Below, piece by piece: positions 38,950-57,073 of a DNA stretch of 64,000 bases. This DNA is from Alsobacter soli (GTDB lineage: Bacteria > Pseudomonadota > Alphaproteobacteria > Rhizobiales > Beijerinckiaceae). The stretch lies in the NCBI RefSeq assembly GCF_003004785.1, contig NZ_PVZS01000013.1, positions 62,001-126,000 of the forward strand, written 5' to 3'. A model generated the notes under the pieces. The model searched no databases and was not told the origin of the DNA. It saw only the letters and a program-made list of their open reading frames with translations. Position 1 is the stretch's first letter, and the number at the start of each line of letters is the position of its first letter. Made by a program: the position numbers and the translations under genes.

Positions 38950-39156
38950 CTACACCAGCCTGCGCGTCGCCAGGATGCGGAACACGGTGGACGACACGAA
39001 ACTCAGGCCGGCGATGGCCTGGAGGCCGGCCTCGGCCAGGCGGCCCTGGTCCACACCGGTCGTGTCGAAGCCGAACGCCGAGAGTCCGATCGCGGCGAGG
39101 CCGATCAGGTTGGACCAGACGGTGCGGCTCTGCAGGATGGGCTTAATCATGTCCAT
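38950..39156 (-). CDS. possible separately initiated holin-like product
   Basis: Inside the hydrolase gene and in the same frame, AGGAG (39167-39163) lies 6 bases before an ATG at 39156 (MDMIKPILQSR). Initiation here would give a free 68-residue two-helix protein. Both the fused and the free form can come from the same mRNA; the sequence alone cannot tell which is made. Confidence 0.45.
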   Translation of the reverse strand: MDMIKPILQSRTVWSNLIGLAAIGLSAFGFDTTGVDQGRLAEAGLQAIAGLSFVSSTVFRILATRRLV

Positions 39157-39741
39157 CGATTTCTCCTGGGTTTTGGATGGTTGGGAGGGCGCCGCGGCGA
39201 CCCGTGGCGGTTCGGGCTTGGGCGCAGGAGGCGCGGCGAGAGCCAGGGCGCGCCGTTCGATCTCGGCGACGCGGCGGCTCCAGCCGCGGCCGAAGGTCTT
39301 CCAGCCCGGCAGGCTGCGAAGCCACGCGAGCCGGGCGGCGGAATAGTGGGAGATCAGCGTGGAGGGGTCGGCGCCGAGGGCCGCCTCGAGCGTGAGGGGG
39401 CCGATCACGCCGTCCTGCTGGACGCCGAGCGCCTTCTGGAGCAGCAGCACGGCCCGACGCGGGCCGGCGTTCACGGCGCCGTCGAACACGGCGAGGTCGA
39501 CCCCGGCCGGGAGTTCATCGCCGCGCACCGCGTCCCAGTACAGATGACGGTAGATGTCCGCAGCCTCGTCGCGGCCGAGCGCCTTCACCTCCTCCGCGCT
39601 GACCGGCCGGCCCCGGGCGCGGGCGAGCGTGGCCTGTGTCACGCCGAAGCGGGTCGGTCCTCCGGGATCGCGCGGATCGTCGGAATACCCGCCCTCCACC
39701 GCGAAGACGGCGTCGAGCGCCGCCGGAAAGTTCGCGTCCAT
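38950..39741 (-). CDS. GTA cell-wall hydrolase (GH108 N-acetylmuramidase) fused to a holin-like tail
   Basis: A 263-residue lysis protein. Residues 1 to about 80 form the glycoside hydrolase 108 domain with catalytic Glu16 in AVEGGYSDDPRDPGG and TRFGVTQ. Residues about 85-165 are a peptidoglycan-binding-type region (LQKALGVQQDGVIGPLT). After a Pro/Ala linker, residues 196-263 contain two hydrophobic helices (SNLIGLAAIGLSAF and IAGLSFVSSTVFRIL), as in small holins. There is no signal peptide. It follows the DUF2793 gene by 10 bases and closes the GTA cluster, so it probably releases particles by lysis. Confidence 0.85.
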   Translation of the reverse strand: MDANFPAALDAVFAVEGGYSDDPRDPGGPTRFGVTQATLARARGRPVSAEEVKALGRDEAADIYRHLYWDAVRGDELPAGVDLAVFDGAVNAGPRRAVLLLQKALGVQQDGVIGPLTLEAALGADPSTLISHYSAARLAWLRSLPGWKTFGRGWSRRVAEIERRALALAAPPAPKPEPPRVAAAPSQPSKTQEKSMDMIKPILQSRTVWSNLIGLAAIGLSAFGFDTTGVDQGRLAEAGLQAIAGLSFVSSTVFRILATRRLV

Positions 39742-39751
39742 GGGATCCCCC

Positions 39752-41164
39752 TCACAGTTCGGCTGAATAATCGTAGGGGCCGGTTCCGGTTTGGACGGGC
39801 GTCGTCCGCATGGCGTAGGCCAGGTTGGCGGGCGCCTGCGCCGTCGCGTAGCGACGAAAGAAGCGGCGGGCCATGGCCAGCTCGATCGCTGGCGGGCGCC
39901 GCTCGAACGGCGTGGAAACCGGCCCGGCCTCGACCTGCACGTCCGCGACGTCGATGGACGCGGCGGCGGCTCCGGACAGGAAGATGCGGAAAGACAGGAA
40001 GGAGCCCGCGCCCACGGTCTTGCCGGCGATGGAGGGGACGTTGACCACCGTAGCCATGCGCCGCCACGTCCCGGGGCTCGGCGGCAGCGCGGCCTGCCCA
40101 ATCGACCACACGGTCGATGAACCGCCAGTCCCGAAGCCCTGGGCGAGGTCGAAGAAAAAGGCCGGCGAGGCCGTGCGGTAGGAGAGCGAGACCACCGCTG
40201 TCCTGCCGGCCAGCGTGGCCACGTCCTCGATGCGGGTCTGCACCTCGGGGTACGACGAGGCGGACGTGGCCGTCACCGCGAAGGTCGCGAAATTCGCCGC
40301 GCCGGGGACATCGGACTGGCCCGGCGGAAACGCCGTGCGCGACACGGAGCCGGTCGCCGGGCCCGCCGCCTGGATGAGCCATCGGTCGAACCCATACGAG
40401 GCCGCCTGCCCCAGGGCGAAAGGCCCGGGGCCGCGCTGGGCGATGCCGAAATCACCATTCACCACCCCGTTGCGGAAGCCGTGCGGAAGGCCGACCGCGC
40501 CGCTCGGGAAGGCCACGGCGCCGGTGGCGGGATCAGCGACGAGGGAGTCGCGCCACGAAGCGCCGTCCGCCGACACCTTGAGACGCCAGGCGTCGTCGCC
40601 GATGAGCCCGGATTCGGCCCGGCCGCCGAAAGCCGTCTGGAACAGGTGCGAGACGATCCGGGCGGCCGCCGGTTTGTTGAAAGCGACGCGCAGGTCGCCC
40701 GTGCCTCCCTCCGTCGCCGGCAAGGCGTTGAACAGGGCGGCGTTGAGGCGGGCCGACAAAGGGTTGGCCGGGTCCGGCGCCGTCCCGATTCCAATCCGCT
40801 CCAGCGGGCCCAGTCGGCGCGCCAGTTCGTCCAGGTCGCGCCAGCCTGCGCCGTCGTGGACCAGGAGCCGCCTCTCCGCGACGACCCAGATGCGCCAGCC
40901 GGGCTTCGGCTGCAGGAAACGCCACGCGCCGTCGTCGAAGGCGGCGAGAGCGCCCGCCTGTCCGGCAAAGGCCCCCGAGGGAGCGGCGCCGACAAGATAT
41001 CGGTCGCCTTCCGCGGGCGCCTCCGGCGGAGCGGCGCGGTTGCGCTCGATCACGGCCGCGTGGACCAGGGCGTCGAGGATTTGCAGCGCGTCGTTGTGCG
41101 TGACGTGCTTCTGCGCCTGGGCGGCCGCCAGATAGGGCAGCCCCAGCCGGGTGCTGTCGGACAT
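39752..41164 (-). CDS. DUF2793 domain phage/GTA tail-associated protein
   Basis: A 470-residue protein of unknown function. Its N-terminal 95 residues are the DUF2793 region (TRLGLPYLAAAQAQKHVTHNDAL and the GDRYLVG segment), seen near the tail end of prophage and GTA clusters. The middle and C-terminal part includes FGIAQRGPG, a jelly-roll-like stretch and the FERRPPAIELAMARRFF motif found at the ends of phage tail fibres. A role in receptor binding is inference. It lies 12 bases after the hub gene and 10 before the hydrolase gene. Confidence 0.83.
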   Translation of the reverse strand: MSDSTRLGLPYLAAAQAQKHVTHNDALQILDALVHAAVIERNRAAPPEAPAEGDRYLVGAAPSGAFAGQAGALAAFDDGAWRFLQPKPGWRIWVVAERRLLVHDGAGWRDLDELARRLGPLERIGIGTAPDPANPLSARLNAALFNALPATEGGTGDLRVAFNKPAAARIVSHLFQTAFGGRAESGLIGDDAWRLKVSADGASWRDSLVADPATGAVAFPSGAVGLPHGFRNGVVNGDFGIAQRGPGPFALGQAASYGFDRWLIQAAGPATGSVSRTAFPPGQSDVPGAANFATFAVTATSASSYPEVQTRIEDVATLAGRTAVVSLSYRTASPAFFFDLAQGFGTGGSSTVWSIGQAALPPSPGTWRRMATVVNVPSIAGKTVGAGSFLSFRIFLSGAAAASIDVADVQVEAGPVSTPFERRPPAIELAMARRFFRRYATAQAPANLAYAMRTTPVQTGTGPYDYSAEL

Positions 41165-41176: not shown

Positions 41177-44100
41177 TCAGAGGACAGGAAGAGTGACGGC
41201 CAGCGCGCGCCCGCGGCCCACGGCGGCGCTGAGCTGGACGATGCGCAGCCACAGAGAGGCCTGGGGCGCGCCGAAGTCGGCGCGTTCGGCGTCTGCCGGG
41301 TACAGCGCCTCCGGGGAGGAGCAGGACAAGGTTCGTTTCACGACACCTCCGGCGAGCACATCGACCTCGTAGCGCTCGGCGGCCTCGCCGAGCGGAATCT
41401 CGACCGGCTCCCAGGCGTCCGCCTCCAGCCGGCCGCGGCGGATCCAGCGCAGCGCCACCCCCGCCGAAGTGCGGCGCGCCGACGCCCGCACGGGGGCGAG
41501 CGGCAGCAGGGCCCCCGGCCCCGGAGCAGCCTCGAACGCCAGTGCGGCGGGGTCGCCCGCGCCGCGGGCGGCAGGGCCGACGCGATACCGGAAAGCCCGC
41601 CCAAGGCTCTCGGGTCCGGCCGCCAGGGGGACGAGGGAGGCGTCCAGCAGCACCGCGAGAGACCCGGCCGGGACGTCGCGGCTGGCGGCCTCCTCCGTGC
41701 CTGACAGTCCGCGCAGGAGACGCGTCAGGCGCCAGCGCGAGGGTCCGACCAGTTCGGAGCGCGCGTAGGCCAGCACCTCCCAGGCGCCGTCCGGCCCCCG
41801 GATGGCCAAGGCCGTCGCGCCCGACAGGGCGGCCATGTCCGCGCCAGTCGGCGGCGCGCCGGCCGGAAGCTGCATCTCCACTCCGCCCGCCCTGTCCCAT
41901 CGACCGCAGGGGCCGGCCGGCAACGGCGCGAGCAGCCGGGCCATCAAGCTCGGCGCGTCGACGGTCGCGACGGTATCGAAGCCAAGGCCATCGGCCGAGC
42001 GCCACACGACCATGCGCCCCGGCCAGGGCCGGCCGGCCACCGCCAGCCATTGGAGCACGGGCGCGCCCGGCACGGGCAGGCTGACGTCCAGGACCGCCGC
42101 GAAAGGGCGACCCGGCGCGGCGGGAGCGCCAACCGAGCGCGTTCCGCCAGCGGCCCGGGCAGGAGCCTCCAGGGCGGCGGGATCCACCGCCCGGCCCGTG
42201 ACCTCCCGCGCCTCGGCGTCGCGGATCCGCGTGATCCGGTAGGTCCGGGGCGTCCCATTCACGGCGAGGCTGACGCAGTCGCCGGGCTCAGGCGCCAGCA
42301 GGCCCGGGCGCAGGCGGAACTCGACGGTTTCCCGCGCGATCCAGGCGTCGTGCAGAATCCTGTCGGCCAGGCGCGCCGCGGCGGAGCGCGGCAGCACGGC
42401 GGCGGCCTCCACCTGCGTTTCCCGGCGGCTGCCGCCCTCGAGGCGGCGGGACAACACGCTGGCGCGGGCGTAGTCCCCCTCCGCGTCCGCAAAGCCGAGC
42501 GCCACCGCGCGGGGCAGTTCGGCGTCCTGGGTCCGCGTGAGGCGCAGCAGCGCGCCCTCCCCGTCCGGCGCGAGATCATCCTCGCCGAGCGGCGTCGCAT
42601 GGACGTCGCCCCGGTCGATGAACCGGACTCGGCCGCCGCTCGCCACCGCGTCGAAGCCGAAGAGCGCGACCAGGGGCTCCAGCGCCGCCCGCAGGCTCAT
42701 GGGGCGGTCCACAACGTATCCGTCCAGGAAGCCGTCCACGTCCACCTCAGCCGGAGGCTCGACGCCCCAGTCGCGCAGCAGCGCGCGGACGAGATCCGCG
42801 AGGGGCATGCCTTCAAGGCGGCCGGTGAGCCAGTGGCCGAGCTCCCAGGCGGGGCCGTCCGCCCAGATCGCTTCCCGGCTCGGAAAGGCCGGGAAAGGCC
42901 GCGCGTCCCAGCACCACAGGTGCATGCGGGCCGGATCGACCATCCGCCCGCCGTAGATCGGCGAGACCGGGTTGGCGGCCTCGGCGAAGCCCGGCGCGGC
43001 CGGATCGAAATGGTTGAGCAGCGCGCGGATCGCGCGGTCCTGGGCCAGGTCGTCGCGGAAGCCGCGCGAGAACGGCGGCAGGTTCGCCGCGCCGGACTTG
43101 GCGTCCGGGAAGCAGTTCGGCCCGTTGGAGCCCTTGTCCACGGCCGGGCAGCCGCACTCGACGAGGAGGATCGGCTTGGAGCGGGGGACCCAGGCCGTGG
43201 GCGTGGCCAGCTCCACGCCGTTCACGCGCTCCACGTGAGGCTGCGACCACCAGGCCGCGAGGTCCTTGGGTCTGTAGACCCAGGGCTTGTCGTAGGCGCC
43301 GTCCGTCATCGGCCGGCGATCCTGCCGGCGTCGGGCCTCGTCGTCTGGGTAGAACCAGTCGAAGCCCTCCCCGCCCGCGACGTTGGCGGCGATGTAGGAC
43401 GCCCCGGCGCCATTGCGGGCGCGGCCGGAGTCCGCGTGGCCGGGCTCGTCACGCCAATCGGCCAGGGGCGGCCACCAGTCGACGCCGACGCAGTCGATCG
43501 CGGGCGAGGCCCAGAGCGGGTCGAGGGGGAAGCGCAGCTCCCCGTCCGACGGGGCATGGGCGCCGTATTCGGTCCAGTCCGCCCCGTAGGTCAGCCTGGT
43601 TCCGGCGCCGAGCACGGCCTTCACGTCCGCGGCGAGCGCAACCAGGGCGGACACGGCCGGGTAAACGCCGGGCGCGGAGCGCACGCGGGTGAGGCCGACA
43701 AGCTCCGAGCCCATCACGAAGGCGTCCACGCCGCCGGCCAGGGCGGCGAGGTGGGCGTAATGCAGCATCATGCGGCGGAAGGACCATTCGGCCGGACCGC
43801 CGTACTGGACGGTCCCGTTCGCCAGGGCGGAATCCGCCGGCCGGGCAGCGCCGAAGAAGGCCGCGACCTGGGCGGCCGCCGCGCCGGCGCCATCCGGGCT
43901 GCCGGTTCGGCCCGGCGCGGGATGGCACGTCACCCGCCCGCGCCACGGGTAGGGCGGCTGGCCGGCGGCGCCGGTCCAGGGGTCGGGCAGGCCGTTGCCG
44001 GCCGGCACGTCCATCATGATGAACGGGTAGAGCATCACCTTCAGGTCGCGGGCCTTCAGGTCGCGGATCGCGGCGACCACGCTGGCGTCGGACGGCGTGC

Positions 44101-45118
44101 CCCCATAAGCGGGGCGACCCTCGGCCTGGGATGCGACGCGCGCCTCGGGGCGGGTCAAGCCCGCGACGGCCCAGGCTGTTTCCAGGTGGACGCGGTCGCC
44201 GCCCTCCACACGCGGGGCCACCGTGCAGGCGCCGGCGCGCAGGTCGTCGCCGAACCAGCTCACCACGAGGCCGACGCTCTCCAGGTTCGGGCAGAGCGCC
44301 TGGAGCGCGTCCAGCGAGGCGGCCCAGTCAGTCGGATGGGTGGATTGCCAGCGGTTCTCGGGCCGGGTCTCGCCGAGGCCGGCGTCCCGGGTGACGAGCG
44401 TCGGCGCGTACACGAACTCGCCCGCGCCCGGGATGAGGTCCACCGCGCGGATCTGGGCGCCGAGGCCGCCCACCGGGCGCACCACCTCGAAGCTGAGCTG
44501 AGGCACGCGGTTGCCGAACTCGGCGAGGGGCAGGCGCTCGAACACCACATAGGCGAGCCCGCGATAGGCCGGGGCGGCGTCCGCGCCCTCCTTGGCGACG
44601 ATGAGCGGGTCAGGCTCCTGGCTCTCCGCGCCGGTGTGGACGCGGATGCTGTAGAGCGTCCTGTCGAGCTCGCGGCCATCCGCCCAGATGCGGCGCACGA
44701 AGGCGATCGGGCCCTCGCACAGTCCGACCGCCAGGTTGGCGTAGTAGGCGTAAGCGGTTGTGACCGTCTGCGCCCCGGCGGAGCCGCCGCCCAGGCCCTT
44801 GCCGCCCCCTGATACGGCGGCGGACTCGCGCCGCGTCGTCGCGACCTCCTCGAAGCGGGTCGCCCAGATCACCTCGCCGCCCACGCGGGCGCGGCCATAG
44901 ACACGCGGGACGGGCGCGCCTTCCGTGGAGCCGAGCCCCGCCAGGGTCTGCAGGCGCGGACCTTCCACGTATTTGCGCGCGCCGCTCCCGCCGAAGAGGG
45001 CGTTGTCGATCAGGGAGCCGGCCGCGGCGCCGAGGCCGCCGCCCACGAGGGCGCCCAGGGGGCCGCCGACGGCTCCGCCCACCGCGGAGCCCGCGGCCTG
45101 GAGGACGAGGGTGGTCAT
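41177..45118 (-). CDS. GTA hub/megatron protein, TIM-barrel-like (RcGTA gp15-like)
   Basis: At 1313 residues this is the largest GTA protein, forming the tail tip and host-penetration hub. The Gly/Ala-rich hydrophobic N-terminus (VLQAAGSAVGGAVGG) is followed by phage-tail beta domains. A glycoside-hydrolase TIM-barrel-like domain spans about 250-650 (YPFIMMDVP, VMGSELVGLTRVR, RLTYGADWTEYG, DCVGVDWWPPL), and more tail domains follow. I start it at the ATG at 45118 (MTTLVLQ), with GGAG upstream. The reading frame is intact over nearly 4 kb, which argues against decay of the cluster. Confidence 0.92.
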   Translation of the reverse strand: MTTLVLQAAGSAVGGAVGGPLGALVGGGLGAAAGSLIDNALFGGSGARKYVEGPRLQTLAGLGSTEGAPVPRVYGRARVGGEVIWATRFEEVATTRRESAAVSGGGKGLGGGSAGAQTVTTAYAYYANLAVGLCEGPIAFVRRIWADGRELDRTLYSIRVHTGAESQEPDPLIVAKEGADAAPAYRGLAYVVFERLPLAEFGNRVPQLSFEVVRPVGGLGAQIRAVDLIPGAGEFVYAPTLVTRDAGLGETRPENRWQSTHPTDWAASLDALQALCPNLESVGLVVSWFGDDLRAGACTVAPRVEGGDRVHLETAWAVAGLTRPEARVASQAEGRPAYGGTPSDASVVAAIRDLKARDLKVMLYPFIMMDVPAGNGLPDPWTGAAGQPPYPWRGRVTCHPAPGRTGSPDGAGAAAAQVAAFFGAARPADSALANGTVQYGGPAEWSFRRMMLHYAHLAALAGGVDAFVMGSELVGLTRVRSAPGVYPAVSALVALAADVKAVLGAGTRLTYGADWTEYGAHAPSDGELRFPLDPLWASPAIDCVGVDWWPPLADWRDEPGHADSGRARNGAGASYIAANVAGGEGFDWFYPDDEARRRQDRRPMTDGAYDKPWVYRPKDLAAWWSQPHVERVNGVELATPTAWVPRSKPILLVECGCPAVDKGSNGPNCFPDAKSGAANLPPFSRGFRDDLAQDRAIRALLNHFDPAAPGFAEAANPVSPIYGGRMVDPARMHLWCWDARPFPAFPSREAIWADGPAWELGHWLTGRLEGMPLADLVRALLRDWGVEPPAEVDVDGFLDGYVVDRPMSLRAALEPLVALFGFDAVASGGRVRFIDRGDVHATPLGEDDLAPDGEGALLRLTRTQDAELPRAVALGFADAEGDYARASVLSRRLEGGSRRETQVEAAAVLPRSAAARLADRILHDAWIARETVEFRLRPGLLAPEPGDCVSLAVNGTPRTYRITRIRDAEAREVTGRAVDPAALEAPARAAGGTRSVGAPAAPGRPFAAVLDVSLPVPGAPVLQWLAVAGRPWPGRMVVWRSADGLGFDTVATVDAPSLMARLLAPLPAGPCGRWDRAGGVEMQLPAGAPPTGADMAALSGATALAIRGPDGAWEVLAYARSELVGPSRWRLTRLLRGLSGTEEAASRDVPAGSLAVLLDASLVPLAAGPESLGRAFRYRVGPAARGAGDPAALAFEAAPGPGALLPLAPVRASARRTSAGVALRWIRRGRLEADAWEPVEIPLGEAAERYEVDVLAGGVVKRTLSCSSPEALYPADAERADFGAPQASLWLRIVQLSAAVGRGRALAVTLPVL

Positions 45119-45166
45119 GGGGAGGCTCCTCCATTTGAGACGCATGCGGTGCGTGAAGCGCCCCCC

Positions 45167-45607
45167 TTAGCGCAGGCCGGGGAAGCGGAAGGCGGCTGTC
45201 AGGCGGGGGCGCCAGACGCCCAGCGCCACTTCGGCCACCACGGCGCCGTCGTGGGCGTGGATCATGCGGGCGGGGCCGGTCGCGACGCCGCAGTGCTTGG
45301 CCGGCGCGCCGTCTCGCCAGCGGAACAGGAGCACGTCGCCGGGCGCCGCCTCACCGAGCGGGATGGGCTCCAGCCAGCGGCTCGCCGCTTCCAGCAGCGC
45401 GTCACGGCTCGAGGCCTCGGCCCAGTCGGGCGTGTAGGGCGGCGGAGATTCGGGCTCGGGCCCGACCAGGGCGCGCCAGACGCCGCGCACCAGGCCCAGG
45501 CAGTCGCAGCCGGCGCCTTTCAGGCTGGCGCCGTGGACGTAGGGCGTGCCGAGCCAGGACCGCGCCTCGGCCAGGATCGCGGCGCGCGTCAGACCGGGCG
45601 CGCTCAC
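45167..45607 (-). CDS. NlpC/P60 family tail peptidase (RcGTA gp14-like)
   Basis: A 146-residue cell-wall peptidase at the tail tip, thought to open peptidoglycan during DNA delivery. The catalytic Cys36 lies in GCDCLGLVRGVWR, His105 in AKHCGVATG, and a polar third residue follows at MIHAHDG. The GTG start at 45607 overlaps the DUF2163 stop as GTGA. It lies between the DUF2163 and hub genes exactly as in Rhodobacter capsulatus GTA. Confidence 0.92.
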   Translation of the reverse strand: MSAPGLTRAAILAEARSWLGTPYVHGASLKGAGCDCLGLVRGVWRALVGPEPESPPPYTPDWAEASSRDALLEAASRWLEPIPLGEAAPGDVLLFRWRDGAPAKHCGVATGPARMIHAHDGAVVAEVALGVWRPRLTAAFRFPGLR

Positions 45608-46497
45608 CGGAACAGGCTCCCGCCATCCATGGCCGGGTCGCCGTTGCGGGCGGCGCGGAGCAGGAAGTCATTGCCCGGCATGTGCGGGAAGCCGCGGAAA
45701 TTGGCGACGTTGCCGAAGCGCCCGGCGCAGGTCGCGAGCCGCTTGTCGCAGCCAGCCGTGACCACGAAGGCGTCCCCCGGGGCCACCGGCGCGCCGGGAG
45801 CCTGCCAGAGCGTGACGAGCCCCTCGCCCACGCCCGCGTCGTGGGCCTTCACCTCGCAGGCGAAGCCGGCGCTGGCGCCCCCCGTGAACCGAAGGCGACC
45901 ACCTGCGAAGAAGCCGCCCTCGAAGGCGGCGAGCCCGGCGGCGCGGATGAAGACGGCGCCGTCGGTGGCCGTCACAACGGCCTCGGCCCGCCAGCGCGGG
46001 TCGGCGAGGTCGACGTGGCAGCGCTCGTCGCCCAGGTCCGCCGCGCAGGCGGGCTGGTAGGTCCGGCCCCGCGGGTCGTCGAAGCGCTGGGCGAGTCCGC
46101 GCAGCTCCGCCACGAAGGCCCGGTCGGCGCGGCGGATCTCGCCGATGACGTAGACGTCGAGCAGGATGCGGCTGGCCGGGTCGGTCCAGTCCACCATCCA
46201 GGCCTCGACCGTGGCGCCGTCGTAGAGCCCGCCCGCCAGGTCGGCCTCGCTGATGGCGCCGGACGACAAGGCGCCGGCCACCTCGCCCCCGCCGATGGCG
46301 AAGCCAAGCTGCGACTCGCAGTCGGAAGCCTCCAGGGCGGCGCCGGCCGCGAAGGTGACTCCGCCGAAGGCGAGGTCGCGGTCATGGTCGGTGAAGCCAA
46401 GGGCGGCGCCGTCGCGGCGCAGCACCTTCCAGCAGCGGGCGAGCGTGGTTGCGCCGGCGGCGATGGCCGCCGACAGCGCGTCGGGCACGGTGCGCAT
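45604..46497 (-). CDS. DUF2163 baseplate hub protein (RcGTA gp13-like)
   Basis: A 297-residue tail hub protein. The DUF2163 pattern is visible in TLARCWKVLRRDGAALGFTDHDRDL, GLYDGATVEAWMVDW and the Cys-rich C-terminal half (PACAADLGDERCHVDL, then GCDKRLATCAGRFGNVANFRGFPHMPG). Family members in GTAs carry an iron-sulfur or metal site formed by these cysteines. It overlaps the NlpC/P60 gene by 4 bases and lies 12 bases after the DUF2460 gene. Confidence 0.92.
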   Translation of the reverse strand: MRTVPDALSAAIAAGATTLARCWKVLRRDGAALGFTDHDRDLAFGGVTFAAGAALEASDCESQLGFAIGGGEVAGALSSGAISEADLAGGLYDGATVEAWMVDWTDPASRILLDVYVIGEIRRADRAFVAELRGLAQRFDDPRGRTYQPACAADLGDERCHVDLADPRWRAEAVVTATDGAVFIRAAGLAAFEGGFFAGGRLRFTGGASAGFACEVKAHDAGVGEGLVTLWQAPGAPVAPGDAFVVTAGCDKRLATCAGRFGNVANFRGFPHMPGNDFLLRAARNGDPAMDGGSLFR

Positions 46498-46509
46498 GGC
46501 GCCTCCGGT

Positions 46510-47154
46510 TCAGGGCAGGATTTCGACCAGCGGGATGGACGGGATCTCGCCCGCCTCGAAGGCGGCGAGGTCCACGATGAGCTCGTCCGTGTCGAAGCGG
46601 ACGGGCACGTCGAACAGGAAGCCGGCGGTCACCTTCGCTCCCTCGGGCGGGATCGCGCCCGGGCGGAATGAGACGATCCCGGTCGCAGGGTCCATGTCGA
46701 AGTCGCGAACGGCCTGCTTTTCGGCGCCGGCCACCGCCACGCGGACGCTGCCGGCCACAGGCTTCGCGATGGGCCGCCGGTAGGGCGCGAAGGCGCCGCC
46801 GTAGGTCTTCGCCAGCGCGAAAGCGGCCGTCGCGCCGTCGCCGACGCCGATGGCCTGGTCCAGCGGACCCGGCGCCTGGCCGTGGGCGCACGAGCGGTCG
46901 TCCAGCCGGTCGCGCCAGCGGAAGCCGTAGAGGCGGCCGCGCCGCTCTTCGAAGAAGGCGACCACGGCCGCGAGCGACTCGAGCGTCTTCACCCCGTAGC
47001 CCGCGTCGTAGCGGCGGCGCGAATGGGCCCAGCGGGCGTTGCGCTCCTCGCGCCCCGAGCCCACGATGACGACATCCGTGCGCCGCCGCGGCCCGCCGCG
47101 GCTCTTCACCGAGACGTCCAGGGGGAAGCGCACCTCATGGAAGGGAGCCGGCAT
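46510..47154 (-). CDS. DUF2460 distal tail protein (RcGTA gp12-like)
   Basis: A 214-residue distal tail or baseplate protein. The family is recognised from FHEVRFPLDVS at the start, RRRYDAGYGVKTLESLAAVVAFFEERRGR in the first half and GFLFDVPVRFDTDEL near the end. It precedes the DUF2163 gene by 12 bases. Upstream, in place of the expected direct link to the tape-measure gene, stand an antisense DUF465 gene and a palindromic repeat. Confidence 0.92.
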   Translation of the reverse strand: MPAPFHEVRFPLDVSVKSRGGPRRRTDVVIVGSGREERNARWAHSRRRYDAGYGVKTLESLAAVVAFFEERRGRLYGFRWRDRLDDRSCAHGQAPGPLDQAIGVGDGATAAFALAKTYGGAFAPYRRPIAKPVAGSVRVAVAGAEKQAVRDFDMDPATGIVSFRPGAIPPEGAKVTAGFLFDVPVRFDTDELIVDLAAFEAGEIPSIPLVEILP

Positions 47155-47242
47155 GGCGACCTCCGATTTCGTTGACCTCGGTCAAAGCGCCGCGGACTTG
47201 GCGGGGCTCTTGTGGGGGCACTGACATTCCAAGGAGAGACGC

Positions 47243-47485
47243 ATGACCCATGTCCCCCACGGCCTCCACGAGGAGTTCCCCACCTCGGCTGCGGCCATCA
47301 GCAAGCTGAAGATCGGCGACGCCCATTTCGCCACGCTGGCGGAGAGCTACGACGCCACGAATCGCGAGATTCACCGCATCGAGGCCGGCATCGAGCCCAC
47401 GGACGACGCGGTGCTGGAGGAACTCAAGAAGAAGCGCCTCAAGCTCAAGGACCAGATCGCCGCCATGCTGCGCGCGGCTGCGTAA
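47243..47485 (+). CDS. DUF465 (YdcH-like) small protein inside the GTA cluster
   Basis: An 80-residue, highly charged, probably all-helical protein. HEEFPTSAAAISKLKIGDAHFATLAESYDATNREIHRIE and ELKKKRLKLKDQIAAML are typical of the YdcH/DUF465 family, whose function is unknown. AAGGAG lies 7 bases before the ATG. It is transcribed against the GTA genes, between the tape-measure and DUF2460 genes, and so needs its own promoter. Family A repeat copy 2 follows its stop codon. Confidence 0.88.
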   Translation: MTHVPHGLHEEFPTSAAAISKLKIGDAHFATLAESYDATNREIHRIEAGIEPTDDAVLEELKKKRLKLKDQIAAMLRAAA

Positions 47486-47527
47486 GCCTGCTCTCGCCAA
47501 CGCGGGAGAGGAACGGTCCAAACGTCG

Positions 47528-47613
47528 GTCATTGCGCGCGCAGTGAAGCAATCCAGGGGACTTGCGCCGAAGCCTCCTGGATTGCTTCGTCGCTGCGCTC
47601 CTCGCAGAGACGG
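47528..47613. repeat. palindromic repeat, family A, copy 2 (diverged)
   Basis: Inverted arms AGTGAAGCAATCCAGG and CCTGGATTGCTTCGTCGCTG, with outer parts diverged from copies 1, 3 and 4. It lies between the DUF465 and tape-measure genes. Confidence 0.7.
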
Positions 47614-47648
47614 AAACGGCGGTTGCTTCGGCCCTTCCGCGCTCCAAC

Positions 47649-48197
47649 TCACAGGCCCCGCTGGCCACGGGCGACGGCGCGGGCGATGGCGGCGGTGAGG
47701 CTGGCTTCCGAGCGGCGGAAGCTTTCCACGTCCTGCGCGGCGATGTTCACCGTCACGGACGCCGCGCCTCCGCCGGCGCGCACGCCGAGCGCCCCGTCGG
47801 GGCCGCGCGCCAGCGGCAGGATGGCCTCCGGCCCGGCCTCGCCGGCGAGGCCGAGGCCCTGCCCGAGCGGGAAGTAGGTCGGCGCGCGGATCACGCCGCC
47901 ATCCGCGAAGGCCTGCACCGGGCCGAAGCCGCCCAGGCCCATCCCCTGCCCCGTCGACGCGCCGAGCCTGGCGCCAAGGCTGGACAGCCCGCTCGCCAGC
48001 AGCGCCTGAAGGGGCTGCATGGCCGCCTTCAGGGCCATGTCCTGCAGCTTCTGCCCCAGCCCGCGCAACACGTCGTCCAGCTTCCTGCCGTCCGTGGTTC
48101 CCTTGGCGAAGGCTGAGGACAGCGCCTTGCCGAGATTGTCCGCAAGGCCGTTCAGCTTCTCGAGCTGGGCTTCCTGGGCAGCGAAGTCTTGATTCAT
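47649..48197 (-). CDS. short phage tail tape-measure-like protein (RcGTA gp11-like)
   Basis: A 182-residue protein with a helical N-terminal half (LEKLNGLADNLGKALSSAFAKGTTDGRKLDDVLRGL), a Gly/Ala-rich middle and the tape-measure C-terminal pattern FADGGVIRAPTYFPLG and GEAGPEAILPLARGPDGALGV. GTA tape-measure proteins are short because the tail is short. I use the ATG at 48197 (MNQDFAAQE), with GGAG upstream, over a start at 48227 that would be embedded in repeat B1. Confidence 0.9.
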   Translation of the reverse strand: MNQDFAAQEAQLEKLNGLADNLGKALSSAFAKGTTDGRKLDDVLRGLGQKLQDMALKAAMQPLQALLASGLSSLGARLGASTGQGMGLGGFGPVQAFADGGVIRAPTYFPLGQGLGLAGEAGPEAILPLARGPDGALGVRAGGGAASVTVNIAAQDVESFRRSEASLTAAIARAVARGQRGL

Positions 48198-48235
48198 GAA
48201 AAGGCTCCAAGGCTCTGAACGGCGCATATTTTCCC

Positions 48236-48350
48236 GCCGTCATCCCCGGCGGCGCGAAGCGCCGGGAAGGGGATCCAGGGGTCGTGGCGCGCGGCCCCTG
48301 GATCCCCTTCCCCTCCGCGGCTTCGCCGCTCCGGCCGGGGATGACGGCGA
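48236..48350. repeat. palindromic repeat, family B, copy 1
   Basis: Inverted arms CCGTCATCCCCGGCGGCGCG and CTCCGGCCGGGGATGACGG, with an inner pair GGGAAGGGGATCCAGGGG and CCCCTGGATCCCCTTCCC. It fills the space between the two tail chaperone-like genes and the tape-measure gene. Confidence 0.85.
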
Positions 48351-48356
48351 AATAAG

Positions 48357-48608
48357 TCAGCCTCTCGCCTCATCCGGGAACAGCCGCATCAGGTCCGCCA
48401 AAGCCGCGCGAGTGGGCGGCGCGGTCCCGCGCCTGCGTCCGAAGACGCCCTCGGCGGCGGCGGCGAGTTCGCGGGGCGTCATGCGCCAGAAGGCGCCAGG
48501 GGTCAGCCGCAGGACGCCGAGGCCGAAGGCCATTGCGTCGTCCCAGGGGAACGGGCGGGAGTCCCCGTCCCCCGAAAGGGCGCCGGATCGGCGTCCTGCG
48601 GCGCTCAA
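48357..48608 (-). CDS. GTA tail assembly chaperone-like protein (rcc01693/TIGR02216 family)
   Basis: A small protein recognised by FPWDDAMAFGLGVLRL and AFWRMTPRELAAA, the core of a family encoded between the major tail and tape-measure genes of GTAs. Because the FPWD motif lies upstream of the first ATG (48533), I favour the TTG at 48608, which overlaps the previous stop as TTGA and gives 83 residues. The start remains uncertain. It probably pairs with the preceding gene as a tail-length chaperone. Confidence 0.75.
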   Translation of the reverse strand: MSAAGRRSGALSGDGDSRPFPWDDAMAFGLGVLRLTPGAFWRMTPRELAAAAEGVFGRRRGTAPPTRAALADLMRLFPDEARG

Positions 48609-48937
48609 GGGCGGGGCGACCGGTCCCCGCCCGAGCCGAAGGCTTGCAGCAGCATGCGGGCGATGGCGTCGGCCACGGCCTCGAGGCCCTCGCCCAGGGG
48701 CAGCGCGGCGACCTCCTCGTCCGAGAGGTCGGCGCCGCCGCCGCGGATCCCGGCGCCGAGCAGGCGCACGAGGTCGCGGGCGGACAGGGCGCCGGAGGCG
48801 AAGCGGCGGCCCAGGTCGTCCAGGCTCTCGGCCGCGAACGCGGCCTCCAGCTCGGCCAGGGCGCCCAGTGTCAGTCGCAACGTGAAGCGGCGGCCGCCGA
48901 GCACGAGTTCGGCGTCCCCGCGGCGCAGGTTCGGCAT
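48605..48937 (-). CDS. gene transfer agent family protein, tail chaperone-like (gp10-like)
   Basis: A 110-residue protein starting MPNLRRGDAELVLGGRR. The segment FTLRLTLGALAELEAAF and the following helical DLVRLLGAGIRGGG region match the small GTA protein after the major tail gene, in the position of phage tail assembly chaperones. I use the ATG at 48937, because upstream in-frame sequence runs into repeat A3. It is coupled to the next small gene by a 4-base overlap. Confidence 0.85.
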   Translation of the reverse strand: MPNLRRGDAELVLGGRRFTLRLTLGALAELEAAFAAESLDDLGRRFASGALSARDLVRLLGAGIRGGGADLSDEEVAALPLGEGLEAVADAIARMLLQAFGSGGDRSPRP

Positions 48938-48963
48938 GGGAGGCGCTCCATTTCGGAACTTTC

Positions 48964-49055
48964 CGTCTTGCGAGGAGCGCAGCGACGAAGCAATCCAGGA
49001 CGGCTGGCCCTGCGACAGTCCCCCTGGATTGCTTCGCTGCGCTCGCAATGACGGG
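48964..49055. repeat. palindromic repeat, family A, copy 3
   Basis: Arms CGTCTTGCGAGGAGCGCAGC (continuing into GACGAAGCAATCCAGG) and CCTGGATTGCTTCGCTGCGC (continuing TCGCAATGACG). It lies between the major tail gene and the chaperone-like genes. Confidence 0.88.
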
Positions 49056-49066
49056 ACAGGGGGATT

Positions 49067-49477
49067 TCAAATGGCGGTGAACGTGAGCGCGCCGGCGCTT
49101 TCCAGCGCCAGGTCGAACGTCACCTCGCCGGCGTGGTCGCCGCGGTAGTCGAGGCTGGCGATGTGGAACGGACCCTGGACGATCCCGAAGCTCGGGATGA
49201 TCACCTGCCAGGTTCGGATGGCGTCGTCGAACAGCGTCTGGCGGACCAGCGCGTCGGCGGCCTCGTCGCGGAACACGCCGGCGCCAGTCACGGCGGCGCG
49301 ACGCACCGCGGCGCCGGCCAGCAGCTCGCGCCAGCGGCCGGCGGAGTCGGCGCTGGTGACGTCCACCGCCTCGCTGTTGAACGTGATCTGGCGTGCGCGA
49401 AGACCTGCGACCGAGACGAAGGCGCCGGTCCCGTCGTCGAGCTTGAGCAGCAGGTCCTTGCCTTTCTGAGCGGGCAT
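49067..49477 (-). CDS. major tail protein, TP901-1 family (RcGTA gp9-like)
   Basis: A 136-residue tail-tube subunit. The N-terminal KGKDLLLKLDDGTGAFVSVAG, the central NSEAVDVTSADSAGRWRELL and the C-terminal FDLALESAGALTFTAI are family signatures; VDVTSADSAGRWRELL is nearly invariant in GTA clusters. The ATG at 49477 is chosen because the upstream in-frame extension is the translated repeat C1. Repeats flank the gene on both sides. Confidence 0.94.
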   Translation of the reverse strand: MPAQKGKDLLLKLDDGTGAFVSVAGLRARQITFNSEAVDVTSADSAGRWRELLAGAAVRRAAVTGAGVFRDEAADALVRQTLFDDAIRTWQVIIPSFGIVQGPFHIASLDYRGDHAGEVTFDLALESAGALTFTAI

Positions 49478-49562
49478 GGAAACCTCCGGTTTTGGGTGAA
49501 AGGGCCGTCTTGGGGTCGCCACGAGCGGGCGAAGCAGCGAGGCAGCGGACGCGACTCCTCCC

Positions 49563-49642
49563 CCGTCATCCCCGGGCTTGTCCCGGGGATCCACGCGCTG
49601 GGGACAGGCGTGGATGGCCGGGACGAGCCCGGCCATGACGGC
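49563..49642. repeat. palindromic repeat, family C, copy 1
   Basis: CCGTCATCCCCGGGCTTGTC at one end and GACGAGCCCGGCCATGACGG at the other, with an inner CCACGC/GCGTGG pair. It lies between the tail terminator and major tail genes. Confidence 0.85.
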
Positions 49643-49686
49643 TCATGCGGGGCTCGTGGTGACGACTGGGCCCCATCCGTTCGCGC

Positions 49687-50085
49687 CTAGAGCGGCTCCG
49701 TAAGCGCGGCGAGGCGGATGACGGCGCGGCGCAGGCCGGCCTTGTCGGGGCGCGCCGTCTCCTGCGACGCCACGCGCAGCAGGACGAGGCGGTTGCCGGC
49801 GAGCGCCAGGGGCGGGTCGGCGCAGAGGGCCGCGATCCGGTCGAGGACGGCGAGGACTTCGGCGTCGCCGCCCTGGCGGGACCAGGCGACCAGGGCGAGC
49901 GCATGCTGGCAGCCGCCGGTCGACCAGTCCCGCGCGCTGGCCTCGCCGAAGGTCACGTAAGGCGGCTCGGCCCCGCGGGGCGGCTCGTCGTAGACGCGCT
50001 CGCCGCCGAGCAGGGCGACCAGCGCGGGGTCGGCCACCAGCAGGGCGCGCAGCGCCGTCCGGAGAGCAAGGATGGGGTGGCTCAC
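49687..50085 (-). CDS. DUF3168 tail terminator/completion protein (RcGTA gp8-like)
   Basis: A 132-residue protein with the DUF3168 pattern LRTALRALLVADPALVALLGG near the N-terminus, then PYVTFGEASARDW and a C-terminal RAVIRLAAL. Such proteins cap the tail at its junction with the head. The start is a GTG at 50085 with GGAGG upstream, overlapping the preceding head-closure gene by 4 bases (GTGA). Repeat C1 lies 44 bases beyond its stop. Confidence 0.9.
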   Translation of the reverse strand: MSHPILALRTALRALLVADPALVALLGGERVYDEPPRGAEPPYVTFGEASARDWSTGGCQHALALVAWSRQGGDAEVLAVLDRIAALCADPPLALAGNRLVLLRVASQETARPDKAGLRRAVIRLAALTEPL

Positions 50086-50411
50086 GGCTTCACCTCCTCG
50101 CAGAGGCAGACGATGCGCCGGCGGCGCTCGTCCGGGTCCCAGACGGCGCGGATCAGGAACAGTCGCGACCCCAGCCGCAGGCGCATGGAGGCGTCCAGCC
50201 CGGCGCGCCAGCGCAGGTGGATGCGGTGGGTCACGCGCTGGCCAACGGCGCCGGCGCGGACCTCCTCGTCCCCGCCGAGCGGGGCGACCGCGCCCCACAA
50301 CGTGGCCGCGCCCGCGAAGGAGCGCGTCACGCCCCCTGCCCCGTCCGGCGCCTCGACGGGCTGCTCCAAGGTCAGTCGCCGGCGCAGCTGGGCGATGGCG
50401 GGCGACGCCAT
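50082..50411 (-). CDS. phage head closure (stopper) protein (RcGTA gp7-like)
   Basis: A 109-residue head-tail joining protein, recognisable from LRRRLTLEQPVEAPDGAGGVTRSF, VTHRIHLRWRAGLDASMRL and the terminal FLIRAVWDPDERRRRIVCLCEE, the standard SPP1 gp16-like pattern. The ATG shares its A with the stop of the preceding adaptor gene. A GTG one codon earlier is an alternative. Head closure and tail terminator genes overlap, as in other GTAs. Confidence 0.91.
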   Translation of the reverse strand: MASPAIAQLRRRLTLEQPVEAPDGAGGVTRSFAGAATLWGAVAPLGGDEEVRAGAVGQRVTHRIHLRWRAGLDASMRLRLGSRLFLIRAVWDPDERRRRIVCLCEEVKP

Positions 50412-50980
50412 CACAGCTTCGCCCGGCGATAGGGGCCGACCAACGCGGCGACGGCCGGCGGCGGCTGCATCGGCGCGAGACCGGGCGCGCCGTCGCCCCG
50501 GTTCTCATAGAGGTGCGCGGCCATGAGCCGAACCGCCATGCGCAGCGCCTCCGGCACGGCGGCAGCGGCGCCCCCGTAGCCGGCCGTCATGTCGATCTCG
50601 ATGCCGCCAAGCGCACGGCCCGGCTGCGGCGTCGCGCCCAGCAGCGCCAGCCGCGGCGGCAGGAAGGCGTTGCTCAACTGGTACAGCGTGGCCGCGACCG
50701 TCGCCGCCACGCCGGCGGCGTTGTAGACGCGGATGGCCGGAACGGCCTGCATGGGCCAGACCGGCAGCTCCAGGGGCGACGCGGGCCAGGCGTTCAGCAC
50801 CCAGCGCCAGGTCTGCGTCAGCAGCTTGCGGCCGGATGCAGCCTCCACGGCCAGACGCGCGGCGGCGATCACGGCCGTGAGCAGAACGTCCTCGTCCGCC
50901 GTGTCGATCTTCAGCCAGTCCTTCAGTTCGGCGAGCGTGACCGGCTCCACCGTGGGCGGGGTCACGAGCATCAGGGCCAT
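50411..50980 (-). CDS. head-tail connector/adaptor protein (RcGTA gp6-like)
   Basis: A 189-residue adaptor with the connector pattern VTLAELKDWLKIDTADEDVLLTAVIAAARLAVEAASGRKLL near the N-terminus and an IEIDMTAGYG motif toward the C-terminus, ending with a helical LRMAVRLMAAHLYENRG. I use the ATG at 50980 with GAGGAG upstream. Its usual upstream neighbour, the capsid gene, is here separated from it by an antisense protease gene and a repeat. Confidence 0.91.
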   Translation of the reverse strand: MALMLVTPPTVEPVTLAELKDWLKIDTADEDVLLTAVIAAARLAVEAASGRKLLTQTWRWVLNAWPASPLELPVWPMQAVPAIRVYNAAGVAATVAATLYQLSNAFLPPRLALLGATPQPGRALGGIEIDMTAGYGGAAAAVPEALRMAVRLMAAHLYENRGDGAPGLAPMQPPPAVAALVGPYRRAKL

Positions 50981-51048
50981 GGGCGGCTCCTCGTCTTCCG
51001 TTCCGGCGGCGAACATGCGATGTCGCGCCCAGGCGGAGGGGTTTCGGC

Positions 51049-51780
51049 ATGCAGCGGTTTCGTAGGCTTCCTGGAATGGGCGCGCTGGCGGCGGCGCTGG
51101 GCGCAGCCGCGCCGGCGGGCGCGATCGTGCAGGGCGGGCCGGCGCCCGAGCTCGCGCCGCACACCGTGATGGTGGTGGAGCGGCAGGGCTTCTGCTCGGC
51201 CACGGCGCTGGCGCCGGACGTGGTGCTGACGGCGGCGCATTGCGTCGCCGGCAAGGAGGTCCGGGTGTTCTACCGGGACGCGGCCAACGCGCCCGCGTTC
51301 CTGGCGCCGCGCGCCGTGGCGGTGCACCCCGGCTACGTGAAGGGGGCCGAGCAGTCCCGGCGCAAGTCCATCGACCTTGCGCTCGTGCGCCTGGCCGAGC
51401 CGCTGCCCAAGGGCTTCGCGCCCGCGGCCCTGAGCGAGGCGACTAGGCCGACGGCCGGCGAGACCTGGACCGTGGCGGGCTACGGCCTGCAGACGGAGGG
51501 CGAGCCGCGCTCCGGCGGCCAGTTCCGCGCCGCGCCCCTGCCCGTGGTGGAGCCTTACGGGCCCAGCAGCATCCTTGTGTGGCTCAAGAGCCCCGGCCGC
51601 GGAGCTTGCACTGGCGACTCCGGCGGCCCCATCTTCGCGCCTGACGGCGGCCTCGGCGCCGTGACGGTGTGGGCCGAGGGAACCGGCAAGTCCCGCTGCG
51701 GGGCGCTGACCCAGGGCGTCCTCGTCGCGCCCCAGCGGGCGTGGATCGACAAGACGCTCGCGGGGTGGGGCGCGCGGTAG
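51049..51780 (+). CDS. secreted S1-family serine protease inserted in the GTA cluster
   Basis: A 243-residue chymotrypsin-fold protease with an N-terminal signal peptide (about 1-25) and a short propeptide-like AIVQGG. The catalytic triad is complete: His64 (TAAHC), Asp109 (SIDLALVRL) and Ser191 (GDSGGP). The S1 pocket position six before the Ser is Gly185, not the Asp of trypsin, so specificity is probably for small or hydrophobic residues. GGAGG lies 9 bases before the ATG. It is transcribed against the GTA genes, between capsid and connector. Orthodox GTA clusters lack it. Confidence 0.9.
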   Translation: MQRFRRLPGMGALAAALGAAAPAGAIVQGGPAPELAPHTVMVVERQGFCSATALAPDVVLTAAHCVAGKEVRVFYRDAANAPAFLAPRAVAVHPGYVKGAEQSRRKSIDLALVRLAEPLPKGFAPAALSEATRPTAGETWTVAGYGLQTEGEPRSGGQFRAAPLPVVEPYGPSSILVWLKSPGRGACTGDSGGPIFAPDGGLGAVTVWAEGTGKSRCGALTQGVLVAPQRAWIDKTLAGWGAR

Positions 51781-51789
51781 GCGCCGGAG

Positions 51790-51966
51790 GCGCGCCCTCC
51801 CCTGCGAGGGGGAGGGTCGACCGCCGCAGGCCGGCGGGGTGGGTGACCCGCACCCGGCGAGGGCGCGCGCGCTCTTTTGGGAAAGCCGGAGCTTCATGCC
51901 CGGCATCACCCCACCCCGGCCCTTCGGGCCGACCCTCCCCCTCAAAGGGGAGGGTGCGCTTCGCGC
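51790..51966. repeat. inverted intergenic repeat, family D, copy 1
   Basis: CGCGCCCTCCCCTGCGAGGG and AAAGGGGAGGGTGCGCTTCG form outer arms, with inner GGCGGGGTGGGTGACC and TCACCCCACCCCGGCC. It lies between the protease and capsid genes. The long spacer carries a GC-rich stretch with no gene. Confidence 0.8.
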
Positions 51967-51968
51967 GC

Positions 51969-53219
51969 TCACGACACGCCGAACTTCAGCAGCTTGATGG
52001 CGTCGAAGTCCTGGACGCCGCCGCCGACGCGCTTGGTCGTGTAGAACAGCACGTAGGGCTTGGCGGTGAAGGGGTCGCGCAGCACGCGCACGCCGATTCG
52101 GTCGACGATGAGGTAGCCGCGGCGGAAGTCGCCGCAGGCGACGGCGAAGCTGTCGGCGGCGATGTCGGGCATGTCCTCCGCCTCCACGACGGGGAAGTTC
52201 ATCAGCGTCGCCGGCTGGCCGACGGCCGCCGGCGGCTGCCAAAGGTACTCGCCCGTGGTGGTCTTGAACTTGCGGACGGCCGCCTGGGTCTTGCGGTTCA
52301 TGACGAAGCTGGCGTTCTGCCGGTAGCCGGCCTTCAGGGCGTAGACCAGGTCGACCAGGATGTCGGAGGGGTTCGCGGCCGCGAAGTTGGCGGAGACGCC
52401 CGTCGGCACATAGGCGAGCTTGCCCCAGCTCCAGGCCGCCACGGTGGACTTGGCCGCCGCCATGAAGCCCTGGGGCTTGTTGACGCCGTCGCCGTTGACG
52501 AAGGCGGCGCCCTCCTGCTCGGCGAACACCGTCTCGACCTCGTCGGCGATCCACTGCTCGATATTCACGGCCGCGTCGTCCAGCAGGGTCTGCGTGGCGG
52601 ACGGCATGGCGTAGAGCTCCATGGCCGGGAAGGTCAGCTCGGCGATGACCTGGCTGTTGGTCTGCGGCCGGGCCGCGGCCTCGGCCACCCAGCCGGTCGC
52701 CGGGCCGGTGGTGGAATAAGCCTTCTTGAAGGTGGCGGTGGAGATCTCGCGCACAGACGCGATGGCCCGGATGGGCGAGATCACCGCCATGCGGCGCAGG
52801 ATCTCCCGCTCGGCCGGGGGCGGGACGAGATAACCGCCGTCCGGGCCGGAGCCGGCGGAAAGGGCCTTGGCCTCGAGCGCCTTGAGCCCGCCGGTCTCGC
52901 CGGCGCGCACATAGAGGTCGAAGGCGGCCTTGTGCTCGGCCGCCGCGGCCGGCAGGGCCGGGCGCTCGGGGCCGCCGAGGGCGGGGCGGCTCGCCTTCAG
53001 GGCGAAGGCGTCGAGGCGGCGGCGGGCGTCGTCGAGCGCCTGGTCGATGCGGGCGAGCTTCTCCTCCACGAGCACGTCGGAGGAGAGGCGCGTCTCCAGC
53101 TCGGCGAGGCGCTGGTCGTTGGCGTCGCGGAAGGCGTCGAAGGCGCGGTTCAGGTCTTCGAAGGCGTGCGCCTCGGAGGCGGCGTGCTTGGTCTCGTAGG
53201 TCGGGATGGCGTGGGTCAT
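51969..53219 (-). CDS. major capsid protein, HK97 fold (RcGTA gp5-like)
   Basis: A 416-residue capsid subunit. The N-terminal third is a coiled-coil scaffold region (residues about 10-110, ending near VEEKLARIDQALDDARRRLDAF). The HK97 core follows, with GPDGGYLVPP, RRMAVISPIRAIASVREIST, GWVAEAAARPQTNS and the C-terminal GDFRRGYLIVDRIGVRVLRDP. I choose the ATG at 53219, because the upstream in-frame extension is translated repeat C2. The scaffold would be removed by the adjacent prohead protease. Confidence 0.95.
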   Translation of the reverse strand: MTHAIPTYETKHAASEAHAFEDLNRAFDAFRDANDQRLAELETRLSSDVLVEEKLARIDQALDDARRRLDAFALKASRPALGGPERPALPAAAAEHKAAFDLYVRAGETGGLKALEAKALSAGSGPDGGYLVPPPAEREILRRMAVISPIRAIASVREISTATFKKAYSTTGPATGWVAEAAARPQTNSQVIAELTFPAMELYAMPSATQTLLDDAAVNIEQWIADEVETVFAEQEGAAFVNGDGVNKPQGFMAAAKSTVAAWSWGKLAYVPTGVSANFAAANPSDILVDLVYALKAGYRQNASFVMNRKTQAAVRKFKTTTGEYLWQPPAAVGQPATLMNFPVVEAEDMPDIAADSFAVACGDFRRGYLIVDRIGVRVLRDPFTAKPYVLFYTTKRVGGGVQDFDAIKLLKFGVS

Positions 53220-53256
53220 GGGTGGGTCCTTGCTTGGGATCACGAGTCGCGCTCGG

Positions 53257-53336
53257 CCGTCATCCCCGGGCTTGTCCCGGGGACCCACGCTTCGGGTGAC
53301 GGCGTGGATGGCCGGGACTGGCCCGGCCATGACGGA
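53257..53336. repeat. palindromic repeat, family C, copy 2
   Basis: CCGTCATCCCCGGGCTTGTC and GACTGGCCCGGCCATGACGG bracket the element, which lies between the prohead protease and capsid genes. It is closely related to the copy at 49.6 kb. Confidence 0.85.
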
Positions 53337-53352
53337 GAAGCAGGAGGCGGCC

Positions 53353-53874: not shown

Positions 53875-53878
53875 GGCG

Positions 53879-54061
53879 TCAGGCCTTGCGCGCCACCACC
53901 CGGGGACGCCGGCGCGGGCCGGTCCGGGCGGTACCGCAGGGGTCGAGGCGGGCGAGGCTCTGGACAAAGGAGGCGATCACCGCCTCAGGGGCGGGATGGG
54001 CGGGCGCGGCCTCGTCCGCGCCAGCCGGAGGAGCGGCGCGCCGCAACAGAAACGACAGCAT
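53879..54061 (-). CDS. small Arg/Pro-rich hypothetical protein between gp3.5 and gp4
   Basis: A 60-residue ORF beginning MLSFLLRRAAPPAG, with a helical middle (EAVIASFVQSLARLD) and an Arg-rich end. The ATG has GAGGA upstream and the stop is 4 bases before the prohead protease start, which fits tight GTA packing. I do not recognise the family. The high GC makes chance frames common here, so it is only moderately supported. Confidence 0.5.
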   Translation of the reverse strand: MLSFLLRRAAPPAGADEAAPAHPAPEAVIASFVQSLARLDPCGTARTGPRRRPRVVARKA

Positions 54062-54098
54062 GGGCAATCCTCAGGTGATGAAGTGTTTGCTGAAATGC

Positions 54099-54113
54099 GG
54101 GGGCGCAGCCCCC
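54099..54113. other. GC stem-loop after gp3.5-like gene
   Basis: GGGGGC-GCA-GCCCCC forms a 6-bp stem with a 3-base loop, directly at the stop codon of the small membrane protein gene. No T-run follows on the minus strand, so it is more likely an RNA-stability or attenuation element than a terminator. Confidence 0.35.
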
Positions 54114-54317: not shown

Positions 54318-54352
54318 GGGGGGCTCCTTCATGCGGGCCGGACGGCCCAACG

Positions 54353-57037: not shown

Positions 57038-57073
57038 GCGAGGGTTCTCCGGAATGGGTGGGCGCAGGAGCGC

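Follow-up and report, generated by a model that had tools for sequence, protein, structure and literature searches.

A fused muramidase and holin-like gene with a putative internal translation start in a gene transfer agent cluster of Alsobacter soli

In the window analysed here, the whole stretch of 64,000 nucleotides from Alsobacter soli, a gene on the minus strand (38950..39741) joins a muramidase, a linker and a holin-like segment with two predicted transmembrane (TM) helices in a single reading frame, and an in-frame ATG preceded by a Shine-Dalgarno (SD) sequence lies where the holin-like segment begins. The locus raises the question of whether one gene can provide both a membrane-tethered hydrolase and a free holin, and of which system such products would serve.

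Domain layout and genomic setting

Translation of 39741-38950 gives 263 amino acids with zero inner stops. The Glyco_hydro_108 (GH108) domain (residues 10-93; 39463..39714, minus strand) is recognised by Pfam with E 4.7e-28 and 98 bits against a cut-off of 21.2, and is followed by a PG_binding_3 domain (residues 96-157; 39271..39456, minus strand; E 9.6e-7). In the AlphaFold model the GH108 core is confident, the linker corresponds to residues 170-195 (39157..39234, minus strand), pLDDT falls below 50 at residues 188-195 and 197-200, and helices occupy residues 196-204, 206-222 and 232-262, the junction methionine being Met196. Model and hydropathy place the first predicted membrane helix at residues 206-222 (39076..39126, minus strand) and the second hydrophobic segment within the helix of residues 232-262 (38956..39048, minus strand). 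The sequence-only reading had described a GH108 hydrolase continuing through a linker into a two-helix, holin-like segment without a stop; translation, Pfam and AlphaFold confirm this layout, on a minus-strand gene. The E16-G17-G18 motif, whose glutamate we take to be the catalytic residue, is invariant across the 22 rows of alignment A1, and Pfam match, EGG motif and fold together mark the product as a predicted GH108 muramidase. The best PDB match is 7dnp, SagA of Brucella, with 50% identity across the enzyme part and a TM-score of 0.93 by target length; no paper on a SagA carrying a membrane segment was found in the literature searched. For NF040573, the holin-associated N-acetylmuramidases, the gene scores 85.7 bits, below the 240-bit cut-off. 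In the two genomes of the set with a muramidase above this cut-off no fusion was seen: in one (L233) the muramidase is overlapped out of frame by an ORF of about 140 aa that looks holin-like, and at the muramidase of the other (L234) no holin-like ORF was seen. The genome of A. soli contains one other GH108 domain, within a 1037-aa frame on a different contig, and no further holin match better than E 0.18.

Searched up to E 1, neither Pfam nor NCBIfam has a family that matches the C-terminal segment of 68 aa, which gives weak matches to two PHROGs, one of them named holin (E 0.053); the segment is termed holin-like because it matches no curated holin family. Topology prediction, which had been proposed as a check, returns a two-TM hairpin, and in 78 of 79 fused genes (described below) the flanks have on average more positive residues than the loop, a charge pattern that fits an N-in/C-in arrangement. 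The length of 68 aa, the two predicted TM helices and the charges agree with what defines a class II (two-TM) holin.

Gene order makes it the final member of a gene transfer agent (GTA) cluster of the RcGTA type. Directly upstream lies a DUF2793 protein with some tail-fibre PHROG matches (39752..41164, minus strand), preceded by the GTA megatron baseplate protein (41177..45145, minus strand; NF048004, 1711 bits against a cut-off of 800). The remaining structural cluster (45604..58614, minus strand), identified by profile matches, comprises baseplate hub, distal tail protein, tape measure (a weak match, with 140 bits where the cut-off is 220), TAC, tail tube, tail completion, connector, capsid, prohead protease, portal and large terminase, so that the genes are collinear from terminase through megatron. 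On the other side, a PepSY protein and a response regulator are found downstream of the fused gene. Between portal and prohead protease there is an insert (about 54430-55645, minus strand) with a 124-aa ORF that has no Pfam match and looks like the end of a larger protein, an overlapping 142-aa ORF, likewise unmatched in Pfam, and a DUF6968 protein. In the remaining three genomes of the genus, of which one is 83% complete, the 142-aa protein was not found. Rfam searches at the gathering threshold gave no matches in the window.

The internal start and its conservation

At the junction, the minus strand reads CAGGAG AAATCG ATG GAC ATG: the SD AGGAG (39163..39167, minus strand) stands six bases ahead of the in-frame ATG of Met196 (39154..39156, minus strand), as had been read from the letters alone. 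Translation of 39156-38950 yields the 68-aa segment, beginning MDMIKPILQSRTVW, which would be released as a putative free holin (38950..39156, minus strand) having frame and stop codon in common with the long protein. The full-length start at 39741 has its own SD-like sequence, GAGGGGG (39747..39753, minus strand), which, as read from the sequence, overlaps the stop codon of the DUF2793 gene. Thus, the in-frame internal ribosome site and the shared stop that characterise endolysin genes with an internal start appear to be present, with the short product predicted as a two-TM hairpin instead of a cell-wall-binding domain. The internal start at 39148-39156 (minus strand) reads Met-Asp-Met, resembling the Met-Lys-Met at the start of lambda S; the second methionine is not conserved among the relatives.

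Whole or partial matches to the protein or its alignment were found in 66 of 149 related genomes and in 168 of 397 genomes of the order, two sets that overlap. A total of 232 loci were examined, 223 of them with a GH108 match; after removal of GH108 matches ending before model position 150, of tails shorter than 60 aa and of duplicates by the last 45 residues, 130 genes were left, 79 with a holin motif and 51 others, and 49 of the latter, carrying a TM segment, served as control tails. The loci had been chosen partly because the match reached into the holin part or had a stop there, so fused forms are over-represented, and given this choice no fusion frequency is claimed. The 79 distinct fused genes show five holin motifs, defining class A (SRTVW, 24 genes), class B (ASQTVW, 5), class C (GYKTY, 30), class F (KWW, 19) and class G (REPSTYAG, 1), and span ten family codes (f1, f2, f6, f17, f19, f26, f31, f34, f40 and f46), with Methylobacterium, Devosia, Pelagibacterium and Hyphomicrobium among the named members. 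In the upstream DNA examined, a megatron gene precedes 58 of the 79 and a DUF2793 gene 16 more; the remaining five (L011, L014, L016, L026 and L206) have a response regulator downstream, accompanied by PepSY in four and standing by itself in L206. The linker, from the end of the GH108 model to the start, has a median length of 18 residues (range 7-40).

Two other origins of the fusion were rejected. A frameshift or assembly error is ruled out by the 79 distinct fused relatives. A phage origin is disfavoured for holin classes A and C, which the queries covered: none of the 762 matching records of a phage collection covers 80% of the window protein, and none of 738 does so with a Devosia form as query; the holin part by itself gave one weak record match (E 0.06).

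Within the 30 codons before the first TM motif, an in-frame ATG is present in 75 of the 79 fused genes and in 11 of the 49 control tails (Fisher test, 4e-18), and an ATG with an SD (dG <= -5) in 69 and 4, respectively (5e-20), contrasts that are weakened by the inclusion among the controls of a gene truly of holin class G (L180), without which the control counts are 10 and 3 of 48. Ten of the 79 have no ATG with an SD of -5 or below; with GTG allowed, the figures are 72/79 and 16/49, the latter a hand count. In random 30-codon windows from the GH108 parts of the same genes (n=3950), the frequencies are 28% for ATG and 10% for ATG with SD. When the codon at a fixed offset from the TM motif is considered with the SD ignored, class A (n=24) has 21 ATG, one GTG, one TTG and one other codon, and class C (n=29) has 26 ATG, two GTG and one other, methionine making up 1.2% of the codons of the GH108 parts; in class F start positions vary, so its 19/19 ATG partly reflect the choice of start. 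The sequence-only reading was to be given up if the segment were soluble in orthologues or the SD unconserved; the frequency of ATG with SD and the predicted two TM helices do not lead to its rejection.

Further features of the junction were compared with the rest of the same genes. In the analyses of SD phase, folding, gene-start SD, charge, linker identity and tree the SD was one of the criteria for picking the start, which biases them towards the result; the permutation test, which takes the nearest ATG, and the fixed-offset counts are free of such a choice. The mean SD energy is -6.6 at the junction against -3.4 at 153 other in-frame ATGs, and the junction SD is as strong as that of the gene start (-7.3 and -6.7; 70 of 79 genes). 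As a group, the SDs are shifted with respect to both synonymous permutation (Wilcoxon, 1e-11) and linker permutation (4e-14); gene by gene, significance at p < 0.05 in the synonymous, within-gene test is attained by just 5 of 79, and since the residues of the linker constrain the SD in part, this test has low power. The window gene taken singly is not significant in it (p = 0.64) and gives p = 0.02 in the linker permutation. In 77 of 78 genes the GG of the SD sits 9-13 nt ahead of the start; all three reading phases occur, so that the residues it encodes include KE, KG, RR and WS. A maximum-likelihood tree of 98 rows was used, among them 80 fused rows (with L180 placed in class G) and 8 split ones, of which some have unrelated small ORFs where the holin would stand; it requires no fewer than 19 changes of SD phase (18-21 across 200 bootstrap trees).

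Folding of the 42 nt at the junction start amounts to -4.7 kcal/mol, compared with -12.1 elsewhere in the same genes, and is weaker than the gene average in 79 of 79, with the Wilcoxon statistic at its maximum; in the window gene the values are -3.9 and -14.6 kcal/mol, and 48 control tails show the reverse (-15.4 against -12.2 kcal/mol elsewhere). Relative to the GH108 part, GC3 drops by 0.22 over the ten codons that precede the start, with a decrease in 69 of 79 genes, and by 0.02 at codons -25 to -13; when it is binned by 15 nt, low values span about -45 to +29 nt, extending into the first 30 nt of the holin part, where a dip is seen as at ordinary starts and amino-acid make-up may add to the low GC. 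Pairwise identity is 0.12-0.15 in the linker, whereas that of the start is 0.92 in class A and 0.87 in class C. Chance or artefact is ruled out by the controls on ATG and SD, folding, linker identity and fixed offsets. The shifts of SD phase, the weak folding and the GC3 dip point to selection acting on the nucleotides and not on the peptide, and the data support the view that the junction bears the marks of a translation start kept by selection, as far as comparison of sequences can tell.

Comparison of split and fused orthologues, another check that had been suggested, revealed several further arrangements besides the fused one. At L024, L027 and L068 (Microvirga) the holin, of class B or A, has a gene to itself with SD and ATG, the SD lying before or just past the muramidase stop; at L044 and L222 a class-G-like holin is encoded by its own ORF, closely spaced or overlapping, and L154, L156 and L226 have other small ORFs. 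At two GTA loci with a muramidase (L022 and L025) no holin was seen, and a PepSY-like gene follows directly. In four relatives (L211, L212, L213 and L216) a class A holin with SD and ATG comes directly after the megatron or DUF2793 gene with no endolysin in between, so that another enzyme, or none, must serve. Finally, in two loci (L214:1225-2349 and L218:1022-2224) the class A holin is fused, after the megatron gene, to a GH19 plus PG_binding_1 protein, again with an in-frame SD and ATG; here a second type of enzyme has the same arrangement. On the tree, the fused or split state changes at least 6 times (5-7 in bootstrap trees), and so does the holin class (6-7). Taken together, the split, stand-alone and GH19 forms and these changes of state suggest that the holin, equipped with a ribosome site of its own, acts as one module that is frequently joined to the enzyme encoded before it.

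Two side observations concern the same set of loci. L044, on a 13-kb contig filed as viral, has DUF2793 and megatron genes ahead of its muramidase and probably represents a GTA locus. A number of GH108 genes outside the holin set (L053, L056, L057, L139 and similar ones) have a C-terminus made of one strongly hydrophobic helix plus a charged tail, and no ATG with SD precedes the helix; several of them are in viral contigs.

One gene, two products, and competing readings

From the features described above, it is likely that the gene gives two products from two starts on one mRNA and acts as a GTA lysis module. Ribosomes starting at 39741 would produce a muramidase tethered through a flexible linker to the two-helix holin, and those starting at 39156 the 68-residue holin alone; if both are made, long and short forms could join one membrane assembly, in which the free form would supply the pore, consistent with its charge pattern, and the long form would deliver the muramidase at the pore rim. 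With a bulky cytoplasmic domain carried by the hairpin that both forms share, the long form may in addition delay pore formation, by analogy with lambda, where S107 slows pore formation by S105; thus, it may either help, by local delivery, or brake, as an antiholin. The original proposal of a tethered hydrolase and a free 68-residue holin from one gene gains support from the conserved SD and ATG, and the comparison extends it: the gene is a probable lysis module of the GTA cluster, and the fusion is widespread.

The same SD and ATG could be the remnant of an old two-gene fusion, no longer used, so that only the tethered muramidase is made. Split forms do have the same SD and ATG, the at least six changes between fused and split states imply that some fusions may be young, and single-gene synonymous tests are mostly not significant; against this, the start is retained over subtrees of classes A, C and F that are 7.4-9.2 changes per GH108 column long, next to a linker of very low identity, with an SD that has moved repeatedly among reading phases and a junction that folds weakly in every fused gene, and such a relic is very improbable. 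The C-terminal helices might also be nothing other than a membrane anchor, serving local wall remodelling and not pore formation, a reading to which the 49 GH108 genes with other membrane tails and the resemblance of the enzyme to SagA lend some weight. Control tails, however, seldom have an ATG with SD, 38 of the 51 genes with other tails show no GTA gene in the upstream DNA examined, and split and stand-alone relatives encode the holin segment by itself, so that a tail-anchored muramidase as the only product is improbable as well.

A further possibility, which is a version of the two-product reading and not an exclusive alternative to it, is that the long product mainly brakes the short holin and that the enzyme acts only after the membrane collapses. 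As in dual-start holins, the two forms have frame, stop and both predicted TM helices in common, and charges of the N-in/C-in type would place the enzyme in the cytoplasm; however, four relatives have the holin with no long form at the same locus, and to our knowledge antiholin action is limited to short N-terminal extensions and does not include a 195-residue enzyme, which makes a switch of this kind rather doubtful, though conceivable. For the two-product reading as a whole, a more general scheme can be advanced tentatively: in the GTAs of Hyphomicrobiales, a one-gene, two-product lysis module may keep constant the holin with its internal ribosome site, with the enzyme (GH108, or GH19 in one family) and the type of holin exchanged several times, and the long form may be a tethered enzyme with a built-in brake that times the burst of the rare producing cell. 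For many Hyphomicrobiales GTAs this points to a specific candidate lysis gene, whose position behind the megatron gene is fixed, and to a testable way in which a single gene could set the ratio of enzyme to pore; for annotation, it warns that the start of a holin may hide within a muramidase gene.

Relation to known lysis systems

The proposed pair of products resembles lambda S (S107/S105), in which a longer and a shorter holin arise from two in-frame starts; the extension of lambda S amounts to two residues, whereas here it would be the whole 195-residue muramidase. Among GTAs, the closest counterpart is that of R. capsulatus, where a putative lysozyme and a holin are described for release of an RcGTA-type particle (rcc00555/rcc00556; relevant passages of PMC3423380), as two separate genes in contrast to the one fused gene found here. 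Caulobacter is described in passages of PMC13236601 as using LypABC, with no canonical holin-endolysin, so that two alphaproteobacterial GTAs release their particles differently.

Holin and endolysin in one polypeptide are also known from a natural fusion of the TpeE type in six isolates of Clostridium sporogenes; there the endolysin follows the C-terminus of the holin, and the passages of PMC9527704 that concern the fusion mention no internal start. An engineered holin-endolysin fusion is mentioned in PMC9636201, and the pertinent parts of PMC9638019 and PMC9662315 contain no mention of such a fusion. Among the papers listed in the literature searches there was no report of a GTA muramidase-holin fusion with an internal start; internal-start endolysins and holin-endolysin fusions are each known separately.

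With regard to the internal start, the gene resembles the endolysins CTP1L (PMC4777826) and CD27L, in which one gene has two in-frame starts, each with a ribosome site, and a shared stop. The survey PMC9430671 deals with internal-start endolysins in phages of Gram-positive hosts and mycobacteria and leaves out Gram-negative hosts as unlikely. In endolysins of the CTP1L/CD27L type the short product is a cell-wall-binding subunit, whereas here it would be holin-like and the host is Gram-negative, suggesting that internal-start endolysin genes exist also in the hosts that the survey had set aside.
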